Source of the DNA: a virus
Reading direction: 5' to 3' (one strand)
Length of the DNA stretch: 39,066 nucleotides
Virus record (IMG/VR): IMGVR_UViG_3300042305_000949
Span: 1-39,066 of that record
A program made the translations under genes and the position numbers. Positions within the stretch are counted from its first letter, which is position 1. Each line of letters starts with the position of its first letter. The notes beneath the pieces are model-generated. The model was not told where the DNA came from and ran no database searches. It was given only the letters and a program-made list of their open reading frames with translations. Below, in pieces: positions 33,959 through 39,066 of this stretch.

Positions 33959-34392
33959 CAACCTACCAAATCTGCGTAAAACTTTACGGACAAGCCACCG
34001 TAGACCAATGGCTTCTGAGCAAGATGGAAGAGATACCACCGCCAACGATTCAACTCGATATGTTCAACGGCTTTATCAGGTCGTTTGATGTTACGAAACG
34101 CACGACAAGACAATACGAGGTAGTTCGTATTCCTGAACGCAAAATGACGATGGAGGATGTCATCAGTTCACAGCGATACGATGCGGTCAATGTTAGGTTC
34201 GTGCTGGTCAAATACTTTGTCGAGAACTATCCACACTATGACTTCAATATGATTGGATTGGTTTTCGGAGGCAAAGACCAAAGCACCATACGCCACGCAT
34301 ATCAGGAGGCTTGTAATAGGTTGGATATAGGCGACCCAGATACAATCGAGGCGTGGCAAAGATTAATGGATTATGTTGGACAAAGAAAGTAA
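33955..34392 (+). CDS. DnaA domain IV-like DNA-binding protein, 145 residues
   Basis: The C-terminal half matches the DnaA DNA-binding domain: AVNVRFVLVKYFVENYPHYD, FNMIGLVFGGKDQSTIRHAY, where GGKDQSTIRHA corresponds to the DnaA signature GGRDHTTVxHA. No ATPase domain is present. The N-terminal part is helical. Phage proteins with only this domain may bind DnaA boxes and interfere with or recruit host replication. ATGA overlap with the XRE gene. Confidence 0.8.
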   Translation: MTTYQICVKLYGQATVDQWLLSKMEEIPPPTIQLDMFNGFIRSFDVTKRTTRQYEVVRIPERKMTMEDVISSQRYDAVNVRFVLVKYFVENYPHYDFNMIGLVFGGKDQSTIRHAYQEACNRLDIGDPDTIEAWQRLMDYVGQRK

Positions 34393-34612
34393 ATACCTGC
34401 TTCAACTAATTGACTGCAACTGCAACGATTGTAAGTTTATGGTCAGGGACTTCGATAAATTAAACCAACACAAGGCACACTATGATGGTTCAGGATTGAT
34501 GGATAGAATGGCTTATGGCAACTGCACCAAGTTGAACAAGCCTGTATCTTTCATTCCTGAAACTTGCCAACTTGAAACGCAAAAATGTTTTGAGCATAGG
34601 AAACATAAATAA
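34373..34612 (+). CDS. Cys-rich conserved phage protein, 79 residues
   Basis: CNCNDCKFMVRDFDKLNQHK, YGNCTKLNKPVSFIPETCQL and KCFEHRKHK: seven Cys and several His that can bind zinc. The pattern CNCxxCxxMxRD...YGNC...PETCQ...CFEHR is shared by a small protein of Bacteroidota phages with unknown role. It is the last ordinary phage gene before the attC-like insertion. Confidence 0.7.
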   Translation: MLDKESKYLLQLIDCNCNDCKFMVRDFDKLNQHKAHYDGSGLMDRMAYGNCTKLNKPVSFIPETCQLETQKCFEHRKHK

Positions 34613-34621
34613 TTTAAACCC

Positions 34622-34753
34622 GTATAACGGTTCGAGTATTGGCGAAGAAGCGGACTTATACCACTAAAGTTGATACGAAGCACTAATGTTGATGACACTA
34701 CAAATGTTCATACGAAGCACCAAAACCGCTTTTTTGCCAATACTTTGTTATGC
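34622..34753 (+). repeat. attC-like recombination site A
   Basis: GTATAAC (34622-34628) and GTTATGC (34747-34753) are the outer complementary boxes (R'' and R'). GTATTGGC (34636-34643) and GCCAATAC (34735-34742) are exact inner complements (L'' and L'). AGCGG / CCGCT extend the stem. The central ~72 bases contain repeated TACGAAGCAC motifs shared with site B. Left spacer 7, right spacer 4: the asymmetry is as in integron attC sites. Length 132 bp is in the attC range. Confidence 0.75.
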
Positions 34754-34832
34754 GTTCGACTTATTTTTTCGTTTTGGTTTTCAGTACGTTAGAAACTATT
34801 TTAAAAATAAATCAAAAATACCTTGAAATATG

Positions 34833-34863
34833 TTTGCAGTTATCAAAATAGGTTGTATATTTG
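34833..34863 (+). promoter_or_regulatory. Cassette promoter, exact Bacteroidota consensus
   Basis: TTTG (34833-34836), 19 bases, TATATTTG (34856-34863), 23 bases before the ATG at 34887. Gene cassettes usually lack their own promoter, but toxin-antitoxin and small-gene cassettes often carry one. It matches the early phage promoter at 27813. Confidence 0.8.
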
Positions 34864-34886
34864 TATCAACAAAAACGATAAACAAA

Positions 34887-35126
34887 ATGACAACAGTGCA
34901 AAACATAGCAAAAAAATTGGTAGCAGCTGGACTAAAAAAAGCAACTACTCAAAGAGTAAATTTTCAAACAATATTTGTAGGTGATTATGAAGCAAGACAC
35001 TTAAAAGTTTTTGGATTGAATTGCATAACTGTAAGTCCAAAAAATGGAATGACTTGCGAAAGAATACAACAAATACTTTCTGATGAAAATACAGAAATTA
35101 AAAACGGACTTGTAATAATAAAATAA
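34887..35126 (+). CDS. Cassette gene 1, 79 residues
   Basis: Starts at ATG 34887, downstream of the cassette promoter; the longer frame overlaps the promoter. MTTVQNIAKKLVAAGLKKAT is a helical start, followed by strands (LKVFGLNCITVSP) and a short helix. AT-rich codons (AAA, AAT, ATA) differ clearly from the flanking phage genes. It may be an antitoxin-like or anti-phage component, but there is no family match I can make. Confidence 0.65.
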   Translation: MTTVQNIAKKLVAAGLKKATTQRVNFQTIFVGDYEARHLKVFGLNCITVSPKNGMTCERIQQILSDENTEIKNGLVIIK

Positions 35127-35127
35127 A

Positions 35128-35367
35128 ATGGATAACAGATTTGTAAAAACATTAGAAAGGCGGGAACTTGACCCGCTTTTCTATAAAGAAATTTTTGAAA
35201 CTTGCACAACGTATAAAAAATTGCGCGGTGATAATTATTGGATTGGAATGAGCTTACATGATATGGGACTAATGGCAATAAAAAGAGTTCCAATGCACAA
35301 TAATAATGGTTCATTCATTGGAGTCGAAGTTTATTTTAAATCAATGTTTGAAGATGAAGAAAAATAA
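35128..35367 (+). CDS. Cassette gene 2, 79 residues
   Basis: One bp after cassette gene 1. N-terminal MDNRFVKTLERRELDPLFYK, then GDNYWIGMSLHDMGLMAIKR and an aromatic strand pair. AT-rich like its partner. The compact pair with one promoter resembles a toxin-antitoxin or small defence unit; that is only an idea from layout. Confidence 0.6.
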   Translation: MDNRFVKTLERRELDPLFYKEIFETCTTYKKLRGDNYWIGMSLHDMGLMAIKRVPMHNNNGSFIGVEVYFKSMFEDEEK

Positions 35368-35512
35368 AGGCGGTAAACGTATTGGCTCAGGTCGTAAAAA
35401 AGCACCATACGAAACTAAAACTATTGCCTTTCGTGTCCGTGTCGAATTTGTCGAACCGATTAAAAAAATGGTAAAGGATTATGTTTCGGCTCGTCTGCAA
35501 GGTGACGCCTAA
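35354..35512 (+). CDS. Cassette gene 3: small basic DNA-binding-like protein, 52 residues
   Basis: Starts at ATG 35354, overlapping the end of cassette gene 2 by 14 bp. MKKNKGGKRIGSGRKKAPYE, then TKTIAFRVRVEFVEPIKKMV. The GGKRxGSGRKK...TKxIxFRVP-like pattern is common in short phage and plasmid proteins, with a ribbon-helix-helix-like end. The TAA stop lies inside the R'' box of attC-like site B, a usual feature of integron cassettes. Confidence 0.65.
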   Translation: MKKNKGGKRIGSGRKKAPYETKTIAFRVRVEFVEPIKKMVKDYVSARLQGDA

Positions 35513-35640
35513 CGTTTGGCGGCTACCCGCTGAAGGGGATTTTAACCACTAAATTTAATACGAAGCAATGAACTTAAATATTAACACAGAATTTTCAAAC
35601 GAAGCACATAACCCCCTTTTGCGGGTAGGTGCTGTTATGC
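35507..35640 (+). repeat. attC-like recombination site B
   Basis: GCCTAAC (35507-35513, R'') and GTTATGC (35634-35640, R'), with inner exact complements CTACCCGC (35523-35530, L'') and GCGGGTAG (35621-35628, L'). AAGGGG / CCCCTT continue the stem. The central part repeats CCACTAAA..T.ATACGAAGCA as in site A and a second ACGAAGCAC. Length 134 bp. Shared centre and layout show that A and B belong to one family. Confidence 0.78.
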
Positions 35641-35667
35641 CTTCGTGCTTTCTCAAATCTCAATATT

Positions 35668-36066
35668 ATGCCAATAGATTACAAAAAATATCCGTCAAAC
35701 TGGAAAACAGAAATACGTCCTGCAATAATGGAACGTGCTAAAAATTGCTGTGAGTTTTGCAAAGTACCAAATTACAAGCTAATTCTTAGAGGGAATTGGA
35801 ATGATAAAGAATGCTATCAAGATGATGATGGAACTATTTACGATGCAAAAACAAGCGAAGTAATTGGAAGCGATTACGTTGGTGAAGTGCATCCAACAAA
35901 TAAACTAATCAAAGTGGTCTTAACAATTGCACATTTAGACCACGATGTAAATAACAATGATTTTTCAAATCTAAAAGCACTTTGTCAGCGGTGTCATAAT
36001 CGTTACGATGTTGGTTTTAGGAAAGAAAATCGCAAAACTAACAAAGGTGTCTTGTCGCTCTTTTAG
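35668..36066 (+). CDS. Cassette HNH endonuclease-like protein, 132 residues
   Basis: Start at ATG 35668 (MPIDYKKYPSNWKTEIRPAI), 27 bases after site B. Zinc Cys C28/C31 (CCEFC), catalytic AHLDHD and CQRCHNRYD as in the phage HNH at 63-488, with which it shares most of its core. The codon usage is AT-rich. It ends TAG, 6 bases before GCATAAC, the first box of a third attC-like site. So it appears to be the payload of a second cassette. Confidence 0.8.
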   Translation: MPIDYKKYPSNWKTEIRPAIMERAKNCCEFCKVPNYKLILRGNWNDKECYQDDDGTIYDAKTSEVIGSDYVGEVHPTNKLIKVVLTIAHLDHDVNNNDFSNLKALCQRCHNRYDVGFRKENRKTNKGVLSLF

Positions 36067-36072
36067 CATGAG

Positions 36073-36079
36073 GCATAAC
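36073..36079 (+). repeat. Remnant of a third attC-like site (R'' box only)
   Basis: GCATAAC is the exact complement of the R' boxes GTTATGC of sites A and B and lies at the right distance after the HNH stop, as in site B. The rest of an attC is missing: phage sequence follows. Confidence 0.45.
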
Positions 36080-36131
36080 AATAAATATACGCAACTCGCA
36101 ACCTTTTTAACCCTATTCCGTATAAACCAGT

Positions 36132-36608
36132 ATGACAAAAATCAACATCATCGAAACGCCAAAAACCAACTTAGACTGGCTGTATCAGTTCGACCTGCCA
36201 AACGGCAAAACGGCTTACATTGAGCCAACATTAATCGACCACGCCAATCCGTACCAGTATCATTCATTCCTGCTGAACAACTTGAAGTCAGGCGAGGTTC
36301 TGGAAATTCGGCAGGGTATCATCACCCCGAAACAAGTCTATCGAGATTGGTTTGTTATGCCGTATTATACCGACCGCAATTACTTCTTCCAGTTAATCAT
36401 GCCTGAATTAATTCGTGATGGCTGGGATATTGATGAACTGCTCAGAATGGAAACCGAGTTTGACTATAAAGGTCATAACGCTTTCAAGTTATACCGAAAC
36501 GACTACGGGCATACCTGCTACGATGTGGATAATATCGATCGGAATTATACCGGAATAGACGGCTGGTGGATTGGAATCATAAAAGATGAGGAGGTGCAAG
36601 ATGTTTGA
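36132..36608 (+). CDS. Hypothetical protein, 158 residues
   Basis: First ordinary phage gene right of the cassettes. MTKINIIETPKTNLDWLYQF start; a beta-rich, aromatic protein with FVMPYYTDRNYFFQLIMPEL and the end GIDGWWIGIIKDEEV. The upstream motif CCGTATAAACCAG also precedes the gene at 38455 and flanks site A. Function unknown. Confidence 0.6.
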   Translation: MTKINIIETPKTNLDWLYQFDLPNGKTAYIEPTLIDHANPYQYHSFLLNNLKSGEVLEIRQGIITPKQVYRDWFVMPYYTDRNYFFQLIMPELIRDGWDIDELLRMETEFDYKGHNAFKLYRNDYGHTCYDVDNIDRNYTGIDGWWIGIIKDEEVQDV

Positions 36609-36882
36609 AATAAACGGCAAAACCTACACGGAACGACCACAACCTGAAAAGAAAGCTCGAATGAGCCGTGTTGAACTTATGGCAATCGCAATGGCTAACA
36701 TTGAACTATACCCTTACGAAGGTTCAAATTATACCAGACCGTTTCCAGAACTTAAAAATAGTTTAGTTGATGAATTTAGGCTGATTCAGGAAAAGAAATC
36801 GAGCCTAACATCAGCAGAAAGAAAAATGGTTGAAAATCAATTTCACAGAGTTTATCAGGAGGTGCAGGATGAATCGAAATAA
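36601..36882 (+). CDS. Hypothetical protein, 93 residues
   Basis: Starts at ATG 36601 after GAGGAGGTG, a clear Shine-Dalgarno-like site that is uncommon in Bacteroidota. The sequence starts MFEINGKTYTERPQPEKKAR and is helical (VELMAIAMANIELYPYEGSN). Family unknown. Overlaps the gene before by 8 bp and the next by 14 bp. Confidence 0.6.
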   Translation: MFEINGKTYTERPQPEKKARMSRVELMAIAMANIELYPYEGSNYTRPFPELKNSLVDEFRLIQEKKSSLTSAERKMVENQFHRVYQEVQDESK

Positions 36883-38454: not shown

Positions 38455-38997
38455 ATGACACCAAACGAAATCCAAAACGAACTGAACCGACTCCAAGCCG
38501 AGTTGGACAGACTCAAACAAGCCGACACATACTTCCCCGAATCGGGAGAGGTTGTCTGGGTATCGGACGACTTAGAAGAGTGGCATAAGCGAATCTTCAT
38601 CAAGTTCCTTGGCTTCAAATCCAGTCCGTACAAATGCGTCTGGGAAAACAAATCCAACACGACTAAGAACTATCTGCTCGGGAAAAATTACATCACATCG
38701 GATTGGGCGTATTGTCGCAGGATGGATGGGGAAATAATTCCGTTCGGTCGGGACAAGTCAATCCAATACCATGTAGCCGTACACGAGGCGGTAACAACCG
38801 AACCCAACCCATACAGCGTGGATTGGAGTAATGCACCGATTTGGGCGGATGTGCATTGTTTTGATGAAGATGGAAGAGGTTTTTGGTATGGGTCAGAATG
38901 CCTTACAAAAGTATGGGTGGTTGAAACTTGCCCATCTAAATTCACCCTCCCCACCGGACTCGACTGGAAATTATCCAAAACGATACGACCGAAATAA
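38455..38997 (+). CDS. Hypothetical protein, 180 residues
   Basis: N-terminal coiled-coil (IQNELNRLQAELDRLKQ, residues ~4-20) and a beta-rich remainder (EVVWVSDDLEEWHKRIFIKF; FGRDKSIQYHVAVHEAV). The last 18 residues and stop repeat at the window's left end. CCGTATAAATCATC precedes the ATG, as for the gene at 36132. The stop overlaps the HNH start (TAATG). Function unknown. Confidence 0.6.
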   Translation: MTPNEIQNELNRLQAELDRLKQADTYFPESGEVVWVSDDLEEWHKRIFIKFLGFKSSPYKCVWENKSNTTKNYLLGKNYITSDWAYCRRMDGEIIPFGRDKSIQYHVAVHEAVTTEPNPYSVDWSNAPIWADVHCFDEDGRGFWYGSECLTKVWVVETCPSKFTLPTGLDWKLSKTIRPK

Positions 38998-39066
38998 TGC
39001 CAATTGATTATAAACTATATCACCCGGAATGGAAATCACGAATCAGACCGGATATTCTTAAACGGG
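38941..39066. repeat. Right copy of 126-bp exact terminal repeat
   Basis: Identical to bases 7-132. See the left copy. It carries the end of the 180-residue gene and the start of the HNH gene, so joining the ends gives an uninterrupted operon. Confidence 0.85.
38997..39066 (+). CDS. 5' start of the HNH gene (partial copy)
   Basis: First 23 codons of the HNH gene that is complete at 63-488, cut by the window end. It confirms that the gene at 63 follows the gene at 38455 on a circular map. Confidence 0.8.
   Translation, partial: MPIDYKLYHPEWKSRIRPDILKR

Follow-up and report, generated by a model that had tools for sequence, protein, structure and literature searches.

Integrons are thought to need the I2 helix of the integrase IntI for recombining folded, single-stranded attC sites. 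This additional domain is described as docking the extrahelical bases of attC and as needed for cassette capture (PMC7790495). In Bacteroidota, complete integrons are on record for Salinibacter only (PMC9024848), and in the archaeal integrons, which share the integron architecture outside the usual taxa, the IntIs retain the IntI-specific domain (PMC9668308). Clusters of attC carried by phages are also already on record: Qi et al. (2023) found integrase-free clusters (CALINs) in phages, including the Bacteroidota phage P12002L, with DNA methyltransferase cargo (PMC9892861). The 39,066-bp virus record studied here (the window) encodes tailed-phage functions (terminase subunits, portal, tape measure, DnaB-like helicase, RecE-like exonuclease) and, as in a phage CALIN, it has two attC sites in a genome without integrase. 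At a probability of roughly 0.88, sequence comparison points to an array of two cassettes that is docked in an attI-like site resident in the phage and belongs to an integron-like system found in Bacteroidota and their phages. Like IntI integrons, this system has an attI followed by tandem attC cassettes, a G|TT crossover, an R''/R' match within the cassette and a recombinase beside attI. Unlike theirs, and unlike that of the archaeal integrons, its recombinase lacks the I2 helix (host versions carry an N-terminal extension). It departs from IntI integrons also in that most attC sites measure about 130 nt, have stem arms of equal length and lack a conserved extrahelical base, and in that the phage genes are inverted. 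It differs from the phage CALINs in its attC family, in having a phage attI and phage-encoded cognate recombinases by the arrays, and in its reversed polarity; P12002L itself was rejected as a member of the attC family, scoring only 19.7 bits with our model.

The two hairpins noticed in the initial annotation are real attC-type sites. They lie at 34622-34753 and 35507-35640, both on the + strand, with the outer boxes it had read (GTATAAC/GTTATGC and GCCTAAC/GTTATGC), exactly complementary inner 8-mers (GTATTGGC/GCCAATAC and CTACCCGC/GCGGGTAG), left spacers longer than the right ones (7 vs 3 nt and 9 vs 5 nt) and a shared repeated centre, with ACGAAGCAC at 34675, 34712 and 35599 and ACGAAGCAA at 35560. 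The R''/R' and L''/L' boxes pair and AAC/GTT is conserved, as in integrons. The covariance-model check that had been proposed for them was made with a model trained on 32 chromosomal (host) sites only, no window site being included, for a family seeded from one attC pattern; both sites are detected at scores well above chance (110.2 bits, E 6e-23; 97.1 bits, E 7e-20). The host model itself has compensatory changes in 15 of its 19 pairs, and no bulge or extrahelical base is conserved across the 32 host sites. Conserved G.T pairs favour folding of the intended strand in 28 of these 32 sites, this strand being the bottom strand of the chromosomal arrays. Hairpin 1 has its folding strand on the + strand of the window, with a stem energy of -18.1 vs -13.9 kcal/mol. 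The attC sites would recombine as folded single strands. Could the hairpins simply be terminators, or a repeat family that has nothing to do with cassettes? Their right arms are T-rich and a hairpin after a gene can end transcription, but they stand in arrays, the ends of their cassettes match, they are linked to recombinases and cassettes are gained or lost exactly, as described below, all of which makes such an origin vanishingly improbable. An Rfam scan of 34000-36700 gave no meaningful match.

The same attC family is found in chromosomal arrays. A half-attC pattern derived from the window and one relative (L010) matches 32 stretches, nearly all from Bacteroidota with a few Ignavibacteria, and the full sites make up a family of ~132 nt. 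The arrays adjoin a ~370-aa recombinase in Chryseobacterium, Ferruginibacter, Flavipsychrobacter, Chitinophagales, Saprospiraceae and Taishania loci, and of 30 loci with recombinase homologues from a Bacteroidota sample, 16 had attC no more than 1.5 kb away. These arrays define the cassette. Over 37 chromosomal cassettes, the R' box is complementary to the R'' box of the attC that follows at 6.08 of 7 positions, compared with 2.81 of 7 for the R'' of its own site and 3.11 after shuffling (p about 1e-4); the unit is therefore attC, then gene, then xxxTAA. Crossover takes place at TAA|C, and the final unit of an array stops at attI.

Read in this way, the window holds two cassettes on its + strand. 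Cassette A extends from crossover to crossover over 34628-35512, with TAA|C boundaries set by the end complementarity of the 37 cassettes, and consists of attC1 and three small genes. As the initial annotation had it, the hairpins bracket these genes and the last stop codon falls inside an R'' box, that of attC2. The genes encode proteins of 79 aa (34887-35126), 79 aa (35128-35367) and 52 aa (35354-35512; 68 aa if started at 35306), all on the + strand, preceded by a probable promoter at 34833-34863 (+; TTTG, 19 nt, TATATTTG) that fits the -33/-7 Bacteroidota consensus. The first two have no known family (no PADLOC, Pfam or PHROG match) and the third a weak match to phrog_8312 (E 0.005); searches of cassette A with PADLOC, Pfam and PHROGs thus gave nothing useful. 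Cassette B (35513-36078, +) combines attC2 with a gene for a 132-aa HNH endonuclease (35668-36066, +; PF01844, E 3e-4; phrog_1571, E 9e-21), followed as previously noticed by GCATAAC at 36073-36079 (+). This box had been taken for the remnant of an attC; it is instead the end of the HNH cassette, exactly complementary to the R' of its own attC2 (GTTATGC) and joined to a separate attI-like site. The cargo had also been proposed to serve defence, anti-defence or toxicity, for which PADLOC, Pfam and PHROGs offer no support beyond the phage-type HNH nuclease, and no role in defence is claimed here.

A second HNH gene (phrog_1571) lies at 63-488, near the start of the record; it has no surrounding attC, is 49% identical to the cassette HNH and shares its SLF ending, and another HNH-like start is seen at 38997-39065. 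Such a paralogue, together with near-perfect 10-bp inverted ends, might indicate that cassette B inserted by its own means as an HNH homing element, the 7-bp inverted repeat GTTATGC/GCATAAC being its end. However, the same end complementarity is seen in the 37 chromosomal cassettes with unrelated genes, attC2 is inside the unit, and cassette A is free of nuclease, so that the nuclease gene alone is not the mobile unit, and the ends of the unit are common to nuclease-free cassettes; homing is accordingly very improbable.

The locus was compared with that of close relatives, retrieved via the two genes flanking the insert. The cassettes are absent at this spot from eight of them (L004, L005, L006, L007, L009, L014, L016 and L017), and present in L003, which is the same phage. 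L015 has another attC with other cargo at this leader, and in L010, L008 and L025 other cassettes occupy the locus. Because close relatives lack them at this spot, the cassettes were acquired, and this by a phage without recombinase gene, as had been noticed: no tyrosine recombinase was found in the window with PF00589 (14 of 14 control genomes were positive), nor in the sampled close relatives. The comparison that had been suggested for an empty site was borne out in part, the insert being absent or different in relatives while an exact empty attI allele of the window phage was found in none of them. Known phages resemble the segment only in matches of 65-73 nt, to the HNH start and the region upstream in cassette A. 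On the left, the phage flank AAACCCGTATAA (34616-34627, +) provides the outer 6 nt of the attC box, and its motif also precedes genes at the same locus in insert-free relatives. In addition, AAACCCGTATAAA lies 5-8 nt ahead of start codons (window 34616, 36118 and 38441; L004-L017), tagging most gene modules of the array locus while nearly absent from the rest of the phage genomes; it is possibly a promoter or an exchange repeat.

On the right, the junction is constant: a cassette end YAAC, then AATAAATATWC, then the leader of the phage gene. The same junction occurs in an unrelated phage family (L028, L030, L037). At 36079-36101 the - strand of the window reads GGTTGCGAGTTGCGTATATTTATTG|TT, an attI-like docking site. 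With a matrix built from 17 host attI sites, which have AAC-N4-WWATATRCGMAA in common, position 36083 scores highest of the whole window on both strands (12.65, compared with 7.5 for the runner-up among 3222 AAC-anchored positions). Compared with the consensus of host and viral sites, this one is short by 1 nt. Viral array ends resemble host attI (p 5e-19), and an attI at the array end beside the recombinase is found in hosts and viruses alike, the window having its attI-like site without adjoining recombinase. Searching Saprospiraceae genomes for the phage-type attI yielded chance-like near matches only and no host. Directly ahead of the host recombinase start (L084, L087, L089), attI-core-like AATACAAAATRCGCA repeats are present, possibly as accessory binding or regulatory sites.

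Alternatively, a host block of attI and cassettes might have entered once by homologous or illegitimate recombination and be inert, any exchange being homologous via the CCGTATAAA leader repeats. The lack of a recombinase in the phage, the leader repeats flanking the modules, and the truncated attC halves at the left junctions of L008, L010 and L025 would all fit, and the truncations do show that ordinary recombination also acts at this locus. An inert block is nevertheless unlikely, if the most serious of the alternatives, given that at least four different cassettes, each with matched ends, stop precisely at one and the same attI junction, that the sequence beyond the attI core is phage-like, and that phage gene polarity is opposite to that of host cassettes (see below). 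Cassettes are also shared between diverged phages: L010 and L008 have one cassette identical over 436 of 436 nt next to a phage gene of 84% identity, and L010 and L025 have others that are 100% identical beside a gene of 90%. At the same spot in L008 (2718-3930), the cargo is an ATPase and an acetyltransferase-like gene with no recognisable attC and a degenerate attI-like junction at the end.

Such arrays are common in phages, and other viruses do carry the recombinase. A ~265-aa relative of the host enzyme, with a strong match, was found in 7 of 48 viral records searched, mostly beside an array, and a search with one viral enzyme recovered 184 viral stretches that encode it; phage hallmark genes were confirmed in three of four contigs sampled. 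In the best 80 of the 184 loci, the host-only model detects 225 attC sites, all upstream of the recombinase gene and all on its strand (225 in 326 kb upstream vs 0 in 425 kb downstream), and 54 of the 57 loci with at least 1.5 kb of upstream sequence have attC. The viral attI (AAC|TATTATATATA) is typically located 42-90 bp ahead of the recombinase start. Five viral contigs (L141, L204, L237, L241, L244) have ~10 to 16 detected attC per array, with mostly very small genes, a large set of cargo.

These enzymes do not make the array a simple member of the known integron family, as the initial annotation had implied: the recombinases that accompany this attC family have no I2. Host and viral enzymes alike match the IntI structure 2A3V only on either side of a gap, where 69 IntI residues face 26 and 80 face 32, leaving 43-48 residues of 2A3V absent, and matches to TIGR02249 are split at the same place and fall below its cut-off. 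Every array-adjacent enzyme measured has a spacing of 53-63 from K..DR to HxLRH, and in the AlphaFold model of one viral enzyme (pLDDT 85, pTM 0.62) the extra helix is absent between residues 181 and 196. The nearest folds of this model are Xer proteins, with IntI close behind; XerA/XerC-like recombinases (NF040815; 4A8E, 5HXY) provide the best sequence and fold matches of the array enzymes, which are however tied to cassette arrays and not to chromosome dimer resolution. In a recombinase tree the viral enzymes cluster together, a result of little weight as one host sequence (L092) was mis-parsed. It could still be argued that a canonical host integron with an I2 integrase placed the cassettes at secondary phage sites, since IntI1 can use attC of other phages (PMC9892861) and complete integrons are recorded in Salinibacter (PMC9024848). 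The spacing, the missing residues and the split TIGR02249 matches speak against such an origin, which we regard as improbable.

Gene polarity further separates phage from chromosomal cassettes. Chromosomal genes run from attI toward their attC, as in integrons (31 canonical and 4 reversed, three of the latter in L061; 31:1 outside this locus). In contrast, viral cassettes are reversed in 119 cases and canonical in 4, over 71 loci that were picked by attC patterns alone and are partly redundant, so that the p-value is nominal (Fisher p 4e-27); a count of 101:5 in favour of reversal was also obtained in viruses. The window is of the viral type. Canonical polarity, which the initial annotation implied and which we had at first assumed for the + strand, was dropped once the host arrays were read: crossover occurs at the left box (TAA|C), and gene direction is opposite to that in chromosomal cassettes. 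This reversal likely reflects co-orientation with phage transcription. L061 is a phage-like contig from the bin of a Saprospiraceae genome; it has four tandem attC, and its reversed cassettes carry a Dcm-type methyltransferase, an HNH-like gene and a second methyltransferase.

A natural experiment is provided by the Freya isolates, cultured Polaribacter phages with genomes of 44.0-48.9 kb and one integrase (PMC8776804); the passages of that paper that we consulted do not mention an array. Their attCs score weakly (20.7 bits) and were rejected as matches of the model; the phages are linked instead by their architecture and a homologous integrase (37.6% identical). Across seven of the ten records, a core of 43,138 nt is identical in five isolates and differs at 1 position in one and at 4 in another, and the isolates differ mainly by loss or replacement of cassettes in an array upstream of the integrase. 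Relative to Freya_10, single deletions of 4942, 4100, 3198, 902 and 307 nt are observed, all five pure deletions having AAC at their bounds with an overlap of 3-4 nt, while Freya_6 has a replacement cassette of 469 nt that is missing from Freya_10. One attI, ahead of the integrase, is the common end point of four of the deletions and of this Freya_6 cassette. A mobile cassette with crossover at G|TT is thus seen both in the end complementarity and in the Freya breakpoints at AAC. In the Freya_6 cassette (L311), a 71-aa gene apparently lies in the loop between the attC hairpin arms, with a second small gene outside.

How would the window phage exchange its cassettes? The mobile unit is an attC hairpin followed by its gene(s) and ending in xxxTAA. 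We propose that a tyrosine recombinase without I2 helix joins the folded attC to attI in its double-stranded form, at TAA|C, which reads G|TT on the opposite strand; cassettes would therefore be gained and lost next to attI. In many phages the recombinase gene adjoins attI. The window phage lacks a tyrosine recombinase of its own, so that one would have to be supplied in trans by the host, a prophage or a co-infecting phage; it would retain attI and cassettes, and exchange these through the borrowed enzyme. Being inverted relative to chromosomal cassettes, phage cassette genes would be read with the phage operon. Cassette B contributes a phage-type HNH nuclease, and cassette A three small genes with a plausible promoter.

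We found no published description of such phage arrays in the open-access PubMed Central papers searched, and the family of arrays is apparently large and undescribed. Taken further, it is probable, though less so than the docked array itself, that Bacteroidota phages own an integron lineage with a no-I2 recombinase, a phage attI, opposite polarity and a shared pool of accessory genes, the window phage being a passenger that borrows the enzyme. If true, I2 would not be the sole route to recombining attC-type hairpins. A widespread attC-attI-recombinase system without I2 helix, in chromosomes and many phages, could explain how small accessory genes (nucleases, methyltransferases and unknowns) are shuffled between phages. 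The Freya isolates, which differ in cassette content, offer a cultured model, and how a plain Xer-like enzyme handles hairpin cassettes is therefore directly testable.
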